From Flavobacteriaceae bacterium (GTDB taxonomy: Bacteria; Bacteroidota; Bacteroidia; UKL13-3): a stretch of DNA of 34,924 bases. The stretch spans positions 1-34,924 of the forward strand of contig JANYDJ010000040.1 in NCBI GenBank assembly GCA_025363675.1, given 5' to 3'. The number at the start of each line of letters is the position of its first letter. The first letter of the stretch is position 1. Position numbers and translations under genes: made by a program. The notes under the pieces were generated by a model. It had not been told where the DNA came from. It saw only the letters and a list, made by a program, of their open reading frames with translations, and ran no database searches. Below, piece after piece: positions 10,242 to 28,693 of the stretch.

Positions 10242-11810
10242 TCATTGTGTTTTTATGAACTTACTCGTGGCAATTCCATTTTCATTATATACATTTATTA
10301 TATATAACCCCGATGCATAGCCTGCCAATTCAATACTTGCCTGATTATTGAAAGGAGTATATAATAAAGTTCTTCCCATCATATCCAATATCTTTAGATT
10401 AGATTTTGTTGAATTTGGTAAACTTATATGTAATATATTTTGTGCTGGGTTGGGCCATATTTCGACTTCGCTCAATATTATATCTTTTTCAATATTATTA
10501 TTCATAGCACATTGCATAGCATTCACGGCATTAATTCTGCCAGCACCTAATTTGTTTTTATATTTTATATTGTTTTTGTTGTCAATATTATCAGCAGTAG
10601 CTTTCAAACAAATTTCTATTTGGTCGGGAGATAGAGTTGGTTTCACAGACAACATCAATCCGCAAAGACCTGCTACCTGTGGGCAACTCATACTGGTTCC
10701 ACTCAGTGTCCCATAATACGGACTATATACAACCGTACTATATATGGTATCGCCTGGAGCCATTACATCTATATAGTTTCCATAGTTCGAGTTTTTAGAA
10801 ACTATATCATTCACTCCAGTACTTCCCACAGCTATTACATGATTGAAACCGGCAGGATAGTTTATAGAATCTTCTCCATCATTTCCTGCTGCTGCAATTA
10901 ATATAATATTCTTTTTATAGGCAGCATCAATTAATGTATGCAAAGTTTTATATAATGAAGTATCCTTCCCGCCCCACGACATCGATATAATATTTGCTCC
11001 TGCACTTATTGCATAATCCAAGCCATCCTCAGCATTGGTAAGCACTACAGGTTGTGTGGTGCATTTCACTGCTATAATAGAAACGGTATTATAACTCACC
11101 GATGCCACTCCCAAATTATTATTTGTTTTTGCTCCTGCAATTCCAGCGGTATGTGTTCCGTGTGTCCAAAATGTGGATGTGGGTGGGGTAGGGTCGTTGT
11201 CATTGTCGGCCACATCGTAACCATGTATATCATCAACAAAACCATTGTGGTCGTCATCAATTTTATTTGTATCAATTTCGTTTGGATTAGTCCATATATT
11301 CAAATCCGGGTGGTCAATTTTTACACCGTCGTCTACAATTGCAATGGTACTTTTATTGTTGCCTGCAAGTCCCCAAGCATTGTCCATGCTAATGGTTTGG
11401 AACACCCAGTTTTGTCGAGATTGTATATCATTGGGTACAGAAAATTTTTGATAGACTGGGCAAGGATGGGCGTATTCTATATAGTTTTCATTTTGCAATA
11501 AATTTACCAAACTATATATACTATCATACTTTTCAAAAGTGATTCTATATATCTTTTGTATTTCAACATCCTGCGTTTTAAATGCTTTTTCTATTTGTAT
11601 AATATGATAGTCTTTAATTGCTTTCTGCCAAAAAGTATTATATATAATATCATTTGTTTTTTTATTATATAGAGGAATTTCTTTTTCAAAACCAGTTTTT
11701 ATTTTGAAGAATAGTTTTCCTTGAAGGTGTTGGGCTTGGCAATATATGCCTACCGTCATTGCGAGGAGCAGTGCGTAAGCCTTGTGTGTAGGGCGATGTG
11801 GTAATCTCAT
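10242..11810 (-). CDS. Secreted subtilisin-like (S8) serine protease with T9SS type A sorting domain
   Basis: 522 residues from the ATG at 11810. The frame stays open to an ATG at 11966, but those extra 52 codons are repeat DNA and would not give a signal peptide. From 11810 the protein starts MRLPHRPTHKAYALLLAMTVG and ends its signal at QAQ. A prodomain of about 90 residues follows, then the protease with catalytic D160 (IAIVDDGV), H217 (THGTHTAGIAG) and S373 (GTSMSCPQVAG) and the oxyanion Asn in AAAGNDG. A D-rich stretch before H217 may bind calcium. The C-terminus (EVEIWPNPAQN ... KFIKTQ) is a T9SS type A sorting domain. It lies downstream of pyrB on the same strand, separated by repeat DNA, and is unlikely to be functionally linked to it. 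Confidence 0.88.
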   Translation of the reverse strand: MRLPHRPTHKAYALLLAMTVGIYCQAQHLQGKLFFKIKTGFEKEIPLYNKKTNDIIYNTFWQKAIKDYHIIQIEKAFKTQDVEIQKIYRITFEKYDSIYSLVNLLQNENYIEYAHPCPVYQKFSVPNDIQSRQNWVFQTISMDNAWGLAGNNKSTIAIVDDGVKIDHPDLNIWTNPNEIDTNKIDDDHNGFVDDIHGYDVADNDNDPTPPTSTFWTHGTHTAGIAGAKTNNNLGVASVSYNTVSIIAVKCTTQPVVLTNAEDGLDYAISAGANIISMSWGGKDTSLYKTLHTLIDAAYKKNIILIAAAGNDGEDSINYPAGFNHVIAVGSTGVNDIVSKNSNYGNYIDVMAPGDTIYSTVVYSPYYGTLSGTSMSCPQVAGLCGLMLSVKPTLSPDQIEICLKATADNIDNKNNIKYKNKLGAGRINAVNAMQCAMNNNIEKDIILSEVEIWPNPAQNILHISLPNSTKSNLKILDMMGRTLLYTPFNNQASIELAGYASGLYIINVYNENGIATSKFIKTQ

Positions 11811-11955
11811 TCCTTTATAAGCTGCCGTCATTGCGAGGAGTCTCGTTTGCAGAACGAGACGACGAAGCAATCTCCTAGGGTGTATGCTCGGGAATTTAAT
11901 CTCGTCGAGCACACTGTTCAATGGGATTGCTTCGTCGTTCCTCCTCGCAATGACG
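11754..11955. repeat. Composite dispersed repeat with direct and inverted copies
   Basis: The 15-mer CGTCATTGCGAGGAG occurs at 11754-11768 and 11826-11840 and inverted at 11941-11955. A second inverted pair, ACGACGAAGCAATC at 11859-11872 and its complement at 11925-11938, nests inside, and a small hairpin TCTCGTT / AACGAGA lies at 11841-11859. The block is GC-richer than its surroundings. Repeats of this type are, from general knowledge, scattered in many Bacteroidota genomes and often get translated into spurious peptides with 'ARRNDEAI'. Here it fills the pyrB-protease spacer and reaches into the protease reading frame. Confidence 0.75.
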
Positions 11956-11972
11956 CGTAACTTCATTTATCG

Positions 11973-12893
11973 TTAATTATTAGCCAGCAAATACATCACC
12001 GCCATTCTAATGGCTACTCCGTTTTCTACTTGGTCAAGTATAATAGAGTGCTCGCTATCGGCCACATCGCTGGTAATTTCCACGCCTCTGTTTATGGGGC
12101 CTGGGTGCATGATGGTGATTTTTTTGTCGAGTCTGTTTAGCAAGTTCAAATCCAAACCGTAGAGCATGGAGTATTCACGTAGCGATGGGAAATATTTGAT
12201 GTCCTGTCTTTCTAATTGTATGCGTAGCATATTCGCTACATCGCACCAGTTAAGGGCTTTCAGCAGGTTGGTTTCTACTTTCACACCTAGCGATTCTATA
12301 TGTTTCGGTATTAAAGTAGCGGGGCCGCAAACCATTACTTCGGCTCCTGTTTTTTGTAGTGCGAATATATTTGATAGTGCAACTCTGCTGTGCATAATGT
12401 CACCCACAATTACCACTTTCTTTCCTTCTAAACTTCCCAGTTTTTCTCTGATAGAATATGCATCTAGCAAACCTTGTGTGGGATGTTCGTGTGTGCCATC
12501 GCCTGCATTAATTATTTGTGCATCGATATGCTTGGCCAAAAATATGTGAGCCCCAGGCACCGGGTGACGCATCACCACCATATCCACTTTCATGGCTAGG
12601 ATATTTCTCACCGTATCAATTAAAGTTTCGCCTTTGGAAACTGAAGAACCTGATGCGGAGAAATTGACCACATCGGCACTCAGCCTTTTTTGGGCAAGCT
12701 CGAAAGAAATACGGGTACGTGTAGAGTTCTCGAAGAAAATATTGGCAACAGTAATATCTCTAAGCGAAGGAACTTTCTTGATGGGGCGGTTGATAACGGT
12801 CTTAAACTCATCGGCTGTTTCAAAAATTAGCCTGATGTCATCACTGTTGATGTTCTTAATTCCTAATAAGTGCGGGGTTGTTAGTTGGCCCAT
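11973..12893 (-). CDS. pyrB: Aspartate carbamoyltransferase catalytic subunit
   Basis: 306 residues, the usual length. It catalyses condensation of carbamoyl phosphate and aspartate to carbamoylaspartate, the first committed step of pyrimidine synthesis. The carbamoyl-phosphate loop is ENSTRTRISFELA (STRT at 57-60); further signatures are HPTQGLLDAY, VGDIMHSRVALSN and MHPGPINRGVEI. No pyrI regulatory subunit, pyrR or other pyr gene is adjacent. A full-consensus promoter lies 38 nt upstream (12931-12961). The stop is followed directly by the dispersed repeat. Confidence 0.97.
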   Translation of the reverse strand: MGQLTTPHLLGIKNINSDDIRLIFETADEFKTVINRPIKKVPSLRDITVANIFFENSTRTRISFELAQKRLSADVVNFSASGSSVSKGETLIDTVRNILAMKVDMVVMRHPVPGAHIFLAKHIDAQIINAGDGTHEHPTQGLLDAYSIREKLGSLEGKKVVIVGDIMHSRVALSNIFALQKTGAEVMVCGPATLIPKHIESLGVKVETNLLKALNWCDVANMLRIQLERQDIKYFPSLREYSMLYGLDLNLLNRLDKKITIMHPGPINRGVEITSDVADSEHSIILDQVENGVAIRMAVMYLLANN

Positions 12894-13784: not shown

Positions 13785-13963
13785 CCAATTCCTACTTAAA
13801 ATATAATATAAGAACTCTGAAATATTAATTATATGAAGTATAAATATGCTTGTTTATCGTATCTCTAATCCCCTTAAGTAGCTAAAATGATTAATGCTAG
13901 ATAAAGTTTTTAATATGAAGAATCATAAAAGATATTCGCCACTAAATAATAAAGTTTCCGGGT

Positions 13964-15141
13964 TAATATACATTTGTGGTGGTAAAATTGTTTGAATCCC
14001 TTAATGGTACTACGTTTGAGAGGATGAAAGGCTATGAATAAAAAAACTGCTTTTTTTGTGGGAGCAAAATTGTAACAAAATGGGGGCATCATAATTCTAA
14101 GCAACGGTATAAATGCCAAAGCTGCAATAGACGATTTACAGGAGGAGAACGACTTGACAATGATACCCTATGGAAAGAATACTGCAAAGGGAAACAAACC
14201 TATTCGCAACTTGCACAAAAGTATGATTGCTCTACTAAGACAATACAGCGTAGGTTGGATAAGGTAAGACCTATTCTTGAAAAGGAATTTCCTCAGAATG
14301 TTAACTTACTAATGGACACTACTTATTTTGGAAAGTCTTTTGGTGTAATGGTTTTTAAGGATAGCATAGGTGGCAAGGTGTTATATAAACAATACGTGAG
14401 AAATGAGACAAATCTACTATATCTAGCAGGCATAAGAGAAGTCATTAGGCGGGGCATAAAAATACAGTCTGTCATTTGCGATGGAAGAAAGGGCTTACTG
14501 CAATTACTCCCAGATGTGACAGTCCAGATGTGCAATTTTCATCAGGTAGCTATCATACGTCGATATTTAACAAAGAAGCCCAAAATGCAAGCCAGTAAAG
14601 AATTATGGGAACTAACAATACTATTAAAGCAAACCGATAAAGAAAGCTTTGAAGGTGGCTTAAACGATTGGTATATTAAATGGGAATCTTTCTTAAGCGA
14701 AAAAAGCAAAGATGAAAAAGGGAAAAACAGATACATACATAAAAGACTAAGAAGTGCTTACCGAAGCCTTAAAACCAACATGCCTTGGTTATTTACCTGG
14801 TACGATAATATGCACTTGAAAATACCCAATACAACAAATGCGATTGATGGTCATTTTGCCGATTTAAAGTACAAACTCCGAAACCATAATGGACTATCAA
14901 TTACTCGAAAGAAAAAATTTGTGGATGAGTTTTTAAAGGCATAAGTGGTCTCAAAAAATACCAATGGGCTATCTCCCGAATAACCCATTGATTAGACATT
15001 TTTGTCGACCACTGATATTATCCCTTAACATGTTGCTCTCCAGCAGAGCATGCATCTGTTTATATCAGTTCCGCAAAAATATGGAATGTTAAATTAGTGC
15101 AACATCTACTAAAAAATAAAGACCACCACAAATGTCTATTA
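13964..15141 (+). mobile_element. IS256-type insertion sequence (variant with zinc-binding transposase)
   Basis: About 1178 bp. Terminal inverted repeats of 20 bp match at 19 positions: TAATATACATTTGTGGTGGT at 13964-13983 against the complement of 15122-15141. They enclose a single transposase gene (14034-14944) plus 177 nt of non-coding DNA with two hairpins (CAATGGG / CCCATTG and TGCTCT / AGAGCA). I could not find a target-site duplication in the flanks, so the insertion may be old. It sits between the frameshifted lipoprotein gene and the end of the Moco operon. Confidence 0.8.
14034..14944 (+). CDS. IS256-family transposase, zinc-ribbon variant, with a one-base frameshift
   Basis: The ATG at 14034 leads into a run of seven A (14040-14046). 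One further A would join it to the main frame and give 303 residues starting MNKKNCFFCGS. In that numbering a zinc ribbon uses C6, C9, C28 and C31 (KCQSCNRRF), followed by a helix-turn-helix-like segment (TYSQLAQKYDCSTKTIQRR) and the DDE core: D95 in LLMDTTYFG, D150 in VICDGRKG, and D272 in TTNAIDGHF, where the family normally has E (N-x-x-E-G). As the sequence stands, the zinc-ribbon part has no start codon in frame; translation could begin only at the TTG at 14255, after the ribbon. Either the copy is dead or production relies on slippage at A7. Confidence 0.8.
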
Positions 15142-15416
15142 CACCGCATAATAATATTTCTTAAAATTCTACATACATATCATATTTTGTTGAAATGTAT
15201 TTTTTGCAATTTTAGCTAATCGGATTTTTGGAAAATGCACAAGTTATGCAAGAGAAATCCACGAATAAACACTGAAACATTGTATCGCCGCGGCTGACCT
15301 TGTTTCTTGGGATGACAAATACCTACTTATTGTATATGTTCTGACTACACATATTCCAAAATTAGTTTTACGAGCTCGGAAATGACCCACATATATAAAA
15401 CAAGCAATACTTTATA
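15142..15416. other. Spacer between the IS and the moaCB stop codon
   Basis: 275 bp with no convincing gene, repeat or terminator. It is AT-rich apart from a short GC patch (CGCCGCGGC) near 15284-15293. It probably represents the original downstream flank of the Moco operon. Confidence 0.5.
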
Positions 15417-22959: not shown

Positions 22960-23028
22960 CGTCATGCTGAATTTATTTCAGCATCTCTAATGTACGTTCA
23001 TGGATGCTGAAATAAATTCAGCATGACG
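22960..23028. repeat. Long palindromic repeat between converging genes (probable bidirectional terminator)
   Basis: A 26-bp arm (22960-22985, starting CGTCATGCTGAATTTATTTC) is exactly inverted at 23003-23028 around a 17-nt loop. Each arm is itself a hairpin (ATGCTGAA / TTCAGCAT). It lies between the stop codons of the glycosyltransferase (22937) and birA (23042). The first 17 bases also occur at 7277-7293. Elements of this form are, from general knowledge, dispersed in Bacteroidota genomes. Confidence 0.75.
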
Positions 23029-24974: not shown

Positions 24975-25981
24975 TACTTGACTAGCACCCGCTCATTTTT
25001 ACCATCAATGTCCATTATCACTATATAGTCATAATCCAGAATATCATAGCCGCCATTTATAAGTTTCGCATCACGGCGTTGTGCTATTATTTTAGTAGCA
25101 TCTGCTGATATTGAGAAATTAATATATGTTCTAGAATTACATGTGTTTTTTATATATTCTTTCTTGAGAGTTTTTACATTCATTTTATAAAATCCATCCC
25201 AGAGAGTAGTAAAATAAACATCCTCTCCATTTTGATGCCACTGTATACAGTTTATCTGGGGAGCCGCAGTTATATAATCTACTTTGTATAATAATTGAAA
25301 TTGGCGTGTGATAAGATTAAAAAGCCCCAACCCATATTGAGCACTTGCGTTTAATGATAATCCACCCACTATTTCCTTTTTGCTACTCCATGCGGTGGGA
25401 AACATCATATTTTCTATTTCATTAAGCCCAATGCTATCAAGTCTTTTACCATCAATTGAAATAAGTTTATTACCGCCTTCTTCAGGGCTACCACCAGTGG
25501 CACTTGTTATGATTGTGTTCCCGTCAGGTGAAAGTGCGGGGAATATATTTGAAAATACTGTAGTGACAGGTTGAAAATCTAACCCATTGTCTCTAATTTT
25601 ATATATAGCTAAATCCAATCCAGCAAAAACAATCCAGCCTTGCTTGTTCCAATTAAGCTGACTATTGATATATATTTTTTCAAGTAGAATAGTTTCGCCT
25701 CCTGTTGTAATATTTCTTTTTACCAGTTGCTTTTCGTATTGCTTAAAGTACACAAATTCATTTGAATTATTTGGATTGAAGCATGGGGATTTATAAAGTG
25801 TATCTTTATGAAAAGGTGCATTTGTAATACTGATGCCACTATCCTTTTTTCTTATAAGCGGTTCACATGATTCGCAAGCTAGGCATACAGGGTTATCTTT
25901 ATGACAAGCAAGAAGCAATATGGACAAGAATAAGGAACTTGCCCATACTGCAACTATTATTATGATTGGTTTACGAATCAA
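24974..25981 (-). CDS. TolB/WD40-like beta-propeller lipoprotein
   Basis: 335 residues. The start is a TTG at 25981 overlapping the stop of the upstream protease gene. A lipoprotein signal ends in LLLACHK (Cys26). Three further cysteines follow soon after (VCLACESC). The body is a beta-propeller: repeated blades with F-P-A-L-S-P-D-G-N, INCIQWHQNGEDVYFTTLW and FSISADATKIIAQR, ending DYIVIMDIDGKNERVLVK, as in TolB/PD40 proteins. No enzymatic site was recognised; propellers of this kind often serve as protein-binding scaffolds. It is co-transcribed with an S8 protease and a beta-barrel. Confidence 0.82.
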   Translation of the reverse strand: MIRKPIIIIVAVWASSLFLSILLLACHKDNPVCLACESCEPLIRKKDSGISITNAPFHKDTLYKSPCFNPNNSNEFVYFKQYEKQLVKRNITTGGETILLEKIYINSQLNWNKQGWIVFAGLDLAIYKIRDNGLDFQPVTTVFSNIFPALSPDGNTIITSATGGSPEEGGNKLISIDGKRLDSIGLNEIENMMFPTAWSSKKEIVGGLSLNASAQYGLGLFNLITRQFQLLYKVDYITAAPQINCIQWHQNGEDVYFTTLWDGFYKMNVKTLKKEYIKNTCNSRTYINFSISADATKIIAQRRDAKLINGGYDILDYDYIVIMDIDGKNERVLVK

Positions 25982-28215
25982 TGCACTAATGTTATTTTGC
26001 GGCTTATTACACCATTTGTTGTTTGAACCCTACAAATATACACACCATTCGTTTGATCTGATAAATCAATTTGAGTTTCAAAATGTTGCTGGTCACCACT
26101 TCTTTTTGTAACAGACTTTACTATTTTGCCACTCATATCTAATATATCTATTTTTACATCTCCTTTTTCCTTTAAGCCAAAAGTTAGAGTAAAAACACCA
26201 TTGGTTGGATTCGGATATAAGGCAATCATATCATCATTAACAGTAGCACTCATAACATCAGTTTGGGATGGATTGTCTGTATATGCTGTGAGAGCAAATG
26301 TTGTAGAGCCATTTAAATCGCTTGGGTACCAATAATCAACTATAGGGCCAAGTGGATAACATGAAGTGAAATGATATACATATCCAAATATTGTTGCTGT
26401 AGTTTGATTGAAGCTTGTGATTGCAGCATCTCTGTCCGACATTAGATTAGGATTAGCCCCTGACCAAGTATTTGTGCCAGCAGCATGGGGCCATACATCA
26501 AGCACAACTCTTCCTGTAGGTTGAGCGATATTAATCACAGTGCTTATCTTATACATAGTTGCAGTGTAATAACCAGCCGCAAGATTTTGGTACCCCTCAT
26601 TTAGATTGACTGTCATAGCTCCTATGGTTGTATAGTTTGAACTATTTGATACTGTTTTGGTATAATGCTTTAGCTGATAACGAGGTAAGACCATTCTGTT
26701 TAAAGTTCGGCCTGCATTTACTTTTCCGTAGCCTGTCTTACTATCATAGGCAACCGCAACGTTTATTCTGTCACAATTTTTCTCCATCATATGTTCGATG
26801 TCTTCTGGCCAAAGAGAATTTGGAGCAAAGGAATTATTGTTTATATAACTCACCATTAAAGCCGAGACACCAGAAACATGTGCAGTAGCAGTAGATGTTC
26901 CATCGTTGCCATCGTTATATAATACATTCGAGCCAGCATTTAAATATTGATATAATAGCCCTACACCAGGAGCAGCAAAATCGATATTATAGTTGTAGTT
27001 TGAAAAACTAGCCCATTGGCCATTTTCATCGGATGCGGCAGTTTTTAAAATCCAATCATCTTTAAAGCTCGAGGGGTATTGTGGACGTGAAACACCATCG
27101 TTTCCTGAAGCTGCTGCCATGCTTACTCCATTCTCATAACAAAATCTATATCCATTTTTCAATGTTTTTGATGTTGTGTTTCCTCCGAAACTAAAATTCA
27201 TGACATGTAATCCATAACCATAGTTTGTGTTACTATTAAAAGAAGTTGCACCTTCTATTAGTGCATCTGCTAACTCCTTGTCTGAAATATCAACATCGCC
27301 CTGTTTTGAAACTTTCATTGCATATAATGAAACGCCGGGATTTGAAGAAGTATTATTACCTCCTGCAATACCAGCCATGCCCGTTGTATTATTTCGTTTT
27401 GCACCAATGATACTTGCCATGTGAGTCCCGTGTCCAAATATATCAAGTTCTCTGTCTGTATCAATATCAGTCCCAAATGCATAGTTATAACCACCTTTTA
27501 TTCGTGAAGTTGCATATGAAGAATCATTAGTACTATCATTAAAATCATAATGATCCCAATTTATGCCAGTATCATATACTCCTACTCTCACATTGTCCTT
27601 GCCAGTGCTAATATTCCAAGCAGAATCCATATTGATGTGAGCGTGTAAATAAGTTGAATTAGGTATCATACTTGCTTGTGCATTTATTGTTACAAAACTG
27701 TCATTAGGGATGCTATATAAAGTATATATATTATTTGTTTGTGCAAACTCTATCCACGGATAAAATTTATTTAGGCTGTCTATAGCTGGCAAATAATCTA
27801 TGCCCGTAGCACCATAATCCCAGTCAATTAAAAATGTTGACCAGAACTGTGGAATTCTTATAGTATCCCCTGTTCTAGTTATAGAAATGGTGTCATTAGT
27901 CGAAAGTCGTGTATATACTTTGTGAGTCGCAAGACTTCCTATATCGGAATTATAAAAAGCATTTGTGTCAAGAAAGACCAAAATATTTGAATCAATAAAA
28001 TCTGATAACATCCCAGATTGGAAAGAAGAATTGTTTACCGCAGCAATGTTTACCAAGGATGGTTTGAATTTCACAATAATTTGATTTTTCCACCACAGTG
28101 GAACACCTGCTGAATCATAAACAATACTGTCAGATGGAGCTGATTGACATATTGCATTATTGCTAATGCAAAAAAGAAATAAGATGCTAAATACAATAAA
28201 AATTTGTTTTTTCAT
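25978..28215 (-). CDS. Secreted subtilisin-like (S8) serine protease with T9SS type A sorting domain
   Basis: 745 residues. Signal peptide 1-24 (MKKQIFIVFSILFLFCISNN ... CQ), a prodomain to about residue 200, then the protease with D215 (VGVYDTGINWDH), H262 (GHGTHMASIIGAKR) and S441 (DGTSTATAHVSG); AAASGNDG holds the oxyanion Asn. A beta-rich region (about 500-660) precedes the T9SS type A domain (IALYPNPTNGVF ... KITLVH). The stop overlaps the next gene's TTG start. Unlike the other S8 protein in this window it has an ordinary signal peptide and a longer middle region. It heads a three-gene unit and may be regulated by the leader structures at 28404-28505. Confidence 0.9.
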   Translation of the reverse strand: MKKQIFIVFSILFLFCISNNAICQSAPSDSIVYDSAGVPLWWKNQIIVKFKPSLVNIAAVNNSSFQSGMLSDFIDSNILVFLDTNAFYNSDIGSLATHKVYTRLSTNDTISITRTGDTIRIPQFWSTFLIDWDYGATGIDYLPAIDSLNKFYPWIEFAQTNNIYTLYSIPNDSFVTINAQASMIPNSTYLHAHINMDSAWNISTGKDNVRVGVYDTGINWDHYDFNDSTNDSSYATSRIKGGYNYAFGTDIDTDRELDIFGHGTHMASIIGAKRNNTTGMAGIAGGNNTSSNPGVSLYAMKVSKQGDVDISDKELADALIEGATSFNSNTNYGYGLHVMNFSFGGNTTSKTLKNGYRFCYENGVSMAAASGNDGVSRPQYPSSFKDDWILKTAASDENGQWASFSNYNYNIDFAAPGVGLLYQYLNAGSNVLYNDGNDGTSTATAHVSGVSALMVSYINNNSFAPNSLWPEDIEHMMEKNCDRINVAVAYDSKTGYGKVNAGRTLNRMVLPRYQLKHYTKTVSNSSNYTTIGAMTVNLNEGYQNLAAGYYTATMYKISTVINIAQPTGRVVLDVWPHAAGTNTWSGANPNLMSDRDAAITSFNQTTATIFGYVYHFTSCYPLGPIVDYWYPSDLNGSTTFALTAYTDNPSQTDVMSATVNDDMIALYPNPTNGVFTLTFGLKEKGDVKIDILDMSGKIVKSVTKRSGDQQHFETQIDLSDQTNGVYICRVQTTNGVISRKITLVH

Positions 28216-28650: not shown

Positions 28651-28693
28651 AACTAGGTAAATCACTAGTAAGCTACTAGTGATTTACCTAGTT
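28651..28693. terminator. Perfect 20-bp inverted repeat with 3-nt loop after rsmE
   Basis: AACTAGGTAAATCACTAGTA (28651-28670) is exactly inverted at 28674-28693. In the rsmE direction it is followed by TTTAAAATTTATTT, so it can act as the operon's terminator. The stem is much longer than an intrinsic terminator needs and holds the palindrome ACTAGT twice, so it may also be a repeat or a protein-binding site. Confidence 0.5.

Follow-up and report, generated by a model that had tools for sequence, protein, structure and literature searches.

The S8 protease locus

The window (the whole stretch of 34,924 nucleotides that was analysed) contains, directly downstream of pyrB, an open reading frame with matches to PF00082 (4e-46), PF18962 (1.7e-12) and TIGR04183; a subtilase domain with a C-terminal Por secretion tail is the layout of a T9SS-secreted S8 protease. 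The N-terminus of this frame, roughly its first 71–78 codons, is nearly all repeat, consisting of one full palindromic element and one solo arm (Table 1). We compared the locus within its own genome (G000, 3.53 Mb) and with two congeners (G001 and G002) and an outgroup (G005); the assemblies are fragmented and of metagenome type, and three species represent the genus.

Table 1 Features of the S8 protease locus (positions in the window).
Feature	Position	Strand	Basis
S8 (subtilase) protease ORF, 574 aa, C-terminal T9SS sorting domain	10242–11966	-	PF00082, PF18962, TIGR04183
pyrB (aspartate carbamoyltransferase), upstream neighbour of S8	11973–12893	-	Kept in G001 and G002
Upstream in-frame ATG (MKLR..), just after the pyrB stop codon; possible retained native start	11964–11966	-	Orthologue comparison
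Full palindromic element of 130 nt, its two arms carrying the CGTC ends on the outside; read in frame with the protease	11826–11955	.	Exact 15-mers, fold, other copies
Solo arm (half-element), CGTC end at 11754	11754–11808	+	Exact 15-mer; arm structure of other copies
Most credible signal peptide, 26 aa, MRLPHRPTHKAYALLLAMTVGIYCQA, predicted cleavage before QHLQGK	11733–11810	-	Rule-based metrics, not SignalP
Repeat-derived part of the hydrophobic core, AYALLLAMT, 9/16 residues	11754–11780	-	Orthologue comparison and rule-based metrics
Host-derived end of the h-region and c-region, VGIYCQA	11733–11753	-	Comparison with G001 and G002

The mature region is 87% identical to that of G001, with a dN/dS of 0.107 for the body of the gene. 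Because the distance to G002 is practically equal from both species (dN = 0.118 from G000 and 0.122 from G001), the G000 gene is not accelerated. Silence of the gene, which the original prediction had named as fatal to it, was thus checked, and the substitution pattern indicates a gene that is under purifying selection and not silent.

A dispersed palindromic repeat

The 15-mer CGTCATTGCGAGGAG occurs exactly at 11754–11768 (+), 11826–11840 (+) and 11941–11955 (-); shuffled-sequence controls gave a mean of 0.25 matches at three or fewer mismatches, and none reached four. Across its own genome, 78 copies were found with at most one mismatch (reversed-pattern control, 0), and the congeners hold 50 (G001) and 4 (G002). 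Arms in other copies are built as CGTCATTGCGAGGAG-CAGTGCG..-GGCGATGTGGTAATCTC, and full elements in G000 and G001 have inverted 15-mer ends and mostly measure 98–156 nt, with variable arms and interior. With terminal inverted repeats, small size and no ORF of its own, the repeat resembles a MITE. The repeat region of the S8 N-terminus folds as RNA with z = -7.5. An Rfam search of the window matched no family, and a literature search with the literal repeat sequence matched only apparently unrelated E. coli papers.

Further repetitive features were observed elsewhere in the window. A perfect 26-nt inverted repeat, CGTCATGCTGAATTTATTTCAGCATC, forms an intergenic CGTC-ended palindrome of a different kind at 22960–23028; a perfect 20-nt palindrome with a 3-nt loop, AACTAGGTAAATCACTAGTA, lies at 28651–28693, upstream of a second S8 protease gene (25978–28215, minus strand); and at 13959–15146 a transposase-like frame, the start of which is apparently frame-disrupted, lies between imperfect 25-nt terminal inverted repeats, in the manner of an insertion sequence.

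The signal peptide

There are three candidate starts for the protease, at 11966 (78-aa presequence), 11831 (33 aa) and 11810 (26 aa), all of which lead into the same core AYALLLAMTVGIYCQA followed by CQA/QH (slash, predicted cleavage). We scored signal peptides by simple rules (charge, core length and Kyte-Doolittle hydropathy) rather than by SignalP. The 26-residue version has an n-region charge of +3, a 16-residue core and a best 9-residue Kyte-Doolittle mean of 2.52, within the range of reference native signal peptides from the window and relatives (2.46–3.57). Starting from either 11810 or 11831, the rules find the basic n-region, uncharged core and small residues at -3 and -1 of a Sec signal peptide. 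The cleavage site CQA/QHLQGK is host sequence and conserved. The solo arm, translated on the minus strand, reads R-L-P-H-R-P-T-H-K-A-Y-A-L-L-L-A-M-T; the ATG at 11810–11808 lies at its inner edge and is not internal repeat sequence.

The original prediction had described an in-frame repeat copy at 11754–11812 that supplies the n-region and part of the core of the only credible signal peptide, starting at 11810. The frame is correct, the arm itself stops at about 11808, and the repeat does supply the n-region together with nine of the 16 core residues. The absence of a usable start further into the protease was also borne out, as the sole downstream ATG, at 11759, gives MTVGIYCQA only, nine residues and too short. 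The 11810 version scores like native signal peptides; "only" goes too far, since the frame is open through both repeat copies to the ATG at 11966, making the starts at 11966 and 11831 also possible.

Comparison with S8 orthologues

We aligned the N-termini of the orthologous proteases. The G002 protein does not have this repeat and carries a native-looking signal peptide, ..YILVLIILLSINIFSNA/QYLPGK, which ends at the same site. The congener G001 (86% identical) has a repeat end, TTCCTCGCAATGACG (C5:18324–18338), at the same junction as in G000; it contributes SFLAMT and is followed by MMLLMFLSQATHA/QHLQGK, where G000 reads VGIYCQA/QHLQGK. The outgroup has a plain MKNCLLLLSFCFCMIGFS/Q. As the signal peptides of G000, G001 and G002 end at the same place, the alignment indicates that the repeat took the place of the n-region and of a part, about half, of the h-region in an existing export signal. 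Of the suggestion that the insertion had replaced or created this signal, partial replacement therefore stands and creation does not, because the congeners and the outgroup have a signal peptide there. S8 has no clean empty-site orthologue, since the N-termini of G001 and G002 are also rearranged. The n-region of the G002 orthologue (L033, about 1446–1500) holds a hairpin, TGTGGTTGGCGACAACGCCAGACCACA, possibly another palindrome inserted at the same spot.

Recurrence in other exported proteins

All repeat copies of the three genomes were checked for in-frame genes, followed by orthologue comparison; for G000, the sequence examined was the stretches around repeat copies. In-frame repeats between the native start and the h-region were found in six exported proteins of the genus: the S8 protease, an M23 peptidase (G002 and G000), a GH92 glycosidase (G000 and G001), an amidohydrolase (G000 and G001), GldD (G001) and P17, an exported protein of unknown family (this repeat in G000, other repeats in G001 and G002). 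Identities are from Pfam or NCBIfam, and the GldD match used the first 102 residues only and fell below the model's cut-off. The S8 gene had been called a rare case, with a search for further in-frame copies as a check; the genus has five or more other exported proteins that are affected, and the S8 gene is not one.

GldD, a gliding lipoprotein with a lipoprotein signal peptide, provides the cleanest empty/filled pair: G002 reads KSSGEK-MKSIISFFSILYIIVITSC, whereas G001 reads KSSGEK-MRSII-[AKTSLRGGHRRSNLWKGILSKSI]-ILFSIIYIIVITSC, with about 23 codons inserted in frame where the n-region meets the h-region (L090/L277, C5 about 38450). Both share the 5' flank, start codon, h-region and lipobox. 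For the M23 peptidase, G001 reads MYFQKKY-HLLYLILLMYGSAYTQ and G002 reads MYFQKKY-[KATRAHNMRDCDVGGLLAMTRKGTQKY]-YILYIFILFSNIITAQ, an insert of 27 codons after MYFQKKY; by way of a target-site duplication, its flanks show a vague CAAAAG..TAT similarity and no more. The start codon of P17 overlaps the upstream stop codon (ATGA) in both G000 (L017) and G001 (L169); its n-region contains, in frame, two different palindromic repeats in G000 and a third kind in G001; in G002 (L170) it holds a duplication, NINKIQKYSRIQSP and NINKIQKHSRIQSP. In four of the repeat-carrying exported genes the body has a dN/dS of 0.06–0.19. A second repeat family, GTCATCCTGAG..TCGAAGG, has one of its 29 copies in a signal peptide (GH92 of G001).

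Several candidates were discarded. LLAMT-frame ORFs in L113, L122 and L125 and a PRND-frame ORF in L109 looked spurious from their translations, which gave no recognisable protein, and were left uncounted; PRND-frame L010, L027, L107 and L146 were not accepted as fusions, since in each a start of native appearance follows downstream of the repeat.

Outside the genus, the complete 3.9-Mb genome G096 (same class, other family) has 243 exact copies of the repeat end; its 30 sampled loci (L211, L213–L241) contained no signal-peptide fusion, so that the pattern is not universal and is either rare or particular to certain lineages. Single loci from other genomes of the class likewise showed no fusion, with L207 ambiguous. 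Many of the repeat ends in G096 stand in short direct arrays spaced about 20–25 nt, an organisation different from that of G000.

Probable translation of the repeat

We then asked whether the repeats are read as protein. An LLAMT frame that stays open over 45 or more codons upstream is found in 8 of the 9 copies in signal peptides, compared with 15 of the 126 repeat ends elsewhere (Fisher p = 2e-6), and whole elements are open throughout in 7/7 signal-peptide cases versus 29/65 others (p = 0.006), although these pooled-copy p-values overstate the case because orthologous insertions in two species are not independent; with the G000 gene families alone, 5 of 5 are open (p = 5e-5 and 0.02 by the two measures). 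The repeat copy in the G000 amidohydrolase has ATT in place of its ATG; beyond the first arm no ATG, GTG or TTG is left, so that almost all of the 107-nt element would have to be translated. The P17 frame in G000 stays open through two different repeats, over 85 codons. A membrane acyltransferase of G000 (L022/L272, C105:23001–24086) carries the repeat in frame at about residues 261–290, an insert absent from G001 and G002; as this copy is internal, no alternative start could help there. These four arguments, all drawn from sequence, favour translation of the repeat in these genes. In-frame insertions absent from orthologues, the behaviour of RPE, are thus seen in GldD, M23 and the acyltransferase.

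Discussion

The sequence shows CGTC-ended palindromes inserted in frame in the S8 signal peptide, their position relative to orthologues and their recurrence, together with purifying selection on the gene body. We consider it probable that the palindromes are selfish and that the resulting signal, part repeat and part host, was tolerated. In this account a MITE- or RPE-like repeat inserted twice between the native start and the Sec hydrophobic core. It would supply a basic n-region, since its translations are in part basic peptides (such as VIARRNDEAI and SLRGG), and, through its outward-reading end CTC CTC GCA ATG ACG (L-L-A-M-T), half of the h-region, with a spare start codon; the host would contribute the seven residues that run up to the cleavage site, and the site itself. 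Insertion in coding DNA would usually kill a gene. An insert may survive in an n-region because only positive charge and a hydrophobic stretch are needed there and the rest is discarded; with Sec n-regions loosely constrained and the repeat residues removed by signal peptidase, export of the protease is predicted to persist and the mature enzyme would be left unchanged. Tolerance of this kind would likewise account for the in-frame repeats in the signal peptides of the other exported proteins of the genus.

The repeats might instead be mainly 5' untranslated, with translation starting at 11810 (or at the repeat-end ATG of other genes), the upstream open frame being chance and the repeat merely re-supplying a start codon and a few residues. 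A caution from Di Nocera et al. (PMC3733652) is that many of the REPs placed at N-termini by annotation lie outside genes. In the LLAMT frame, 45% of intergenic elements are open from end to end anyway, and a start of the type MTRKG.. at the end of the repeat yields a textbook signal peptide in both the G001 amidohydrolase and the G002 M23 peptidase. Set against this are the open frames of all seven full elements in signal peptides compared with 29 of 65 others, the ATG-to-ATT change in the G000 amidohydrolase, the overlapping ATGA start of P17 kept in two species and the conserved native starts of GldD and M23; moreover, the S8 half-element would still be translated. We therefore regard untranslated repeats as unlikely.

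Disruption of the S8 gene, leaving it decaying or without a working signal peptide, would fit an n-region that is unusual and, with the 11966 start, up to 62 residues long. It is very hard to reconcile with an intact 574-aa ORF, a dN/dS of 0.107 against G001 with no acceleration, and an intact cleavage site and T9SS domain, and we give it almost no weight. The original prediction spoke of a domesticated repeat, which implies a selected benefit; a hairpin or long n-region could, for instance, regulate translation or targeting of secreted proteins. This would agree with the recurrence across six families of exported proteins, and with S8, the amidohydrolase and GH92 each having repeat ends at one and the same site in two species. 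However, the same-site elements differ in arms and length between species, GldD of G002 and M23 of G001 have none, and no conserved structure was shown. Variable or missing elements fit tolerance better, nothing here shows a benefit for S8, where tolerance fits the data equally well, and we hold domestication to be improbable.

Returning to tolerated insertion, a broader version, which we put forward tentatively and would not yet favour, is that n-regions in this lineage form a general safe harbour for RPE-like palindromes, because the insert is cleaved off. In-frame elements would swell n-regions to as much as 60–80 residues, and the outward CGTC end (ATG-ACG, Leu-Leu-Ala-Met-Thr) might let such insertions repair themselves, as it provides hydrophobic residues and a start codon. 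Repeats that collect in a discarded segment suggest a simple rule about which parts of coding DNA can accommodate mobile elements, and natural variants with very long n-regions could test how little the Sec pathway demands. A practical warning is that the starts of repeat-carrying genes may be wrongly placed by gene callers and by signal-peptide predictors.

Among known systems, Di Nocera et al. (2013; PMC3733652) defined CGTC-tagged repeats, including two RPE families, and report the superfamily in Bacteroidetes. Like these REPs, the present repeat is palindromic, dispersed, sometimes within ORFs, and ends in CGTC followed by AT, with CGTCATTGCGAGGAG in nearly all copies. The 8–9 bp stem with a 4–5 nt loop beside the CGTC end was absent in four arm variants folded as DNA; only ATTGC/GCAAT pairs next to the end, and the tails are CTC or CCC, versus the CCA tail of CGTC-tagged REPs (CGTC-1 to 4). 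The composite elements, mostly 98–156 nt with a variable interior, also differ from that class. With the tag in common and the stem-loop absent, we do not file the repeat as a CGTC-tagged REP. A precedent is Yersinia RU-2 in YPO1552 (Delihas 2007, PMC2759123), one predicted case in a small protein; the gene concerned here encodes a large, conserved secreted enzyme, and the arrangement recurs across three species and six gene families. In the open-access text searched, we found no report of such repeats being concentrated in signal peptides.

The general precedent is the Rickettsia palindromic elements (RPE), in-frame palindromes in Rickettsia genes (Ogata et al. 2000, 2002, as covered by PMC10969869 and PMC3733652). 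Both are palindromic selfish repeats of about 100–150 nt, in frame in unrelated genes and open in several frames, and RPE are translated without killing the gene, a property argued here from sequence; the likeness lies in organisation, and the comparison of sequence extended to the CGTC end. The host here belongs to the Bacteroidota, and most in-frame copies lie in signal peptides, sparing the mature protein. RPE end up inside the mature protein, whereas these palindromes gather in a segment that is discarded after use.
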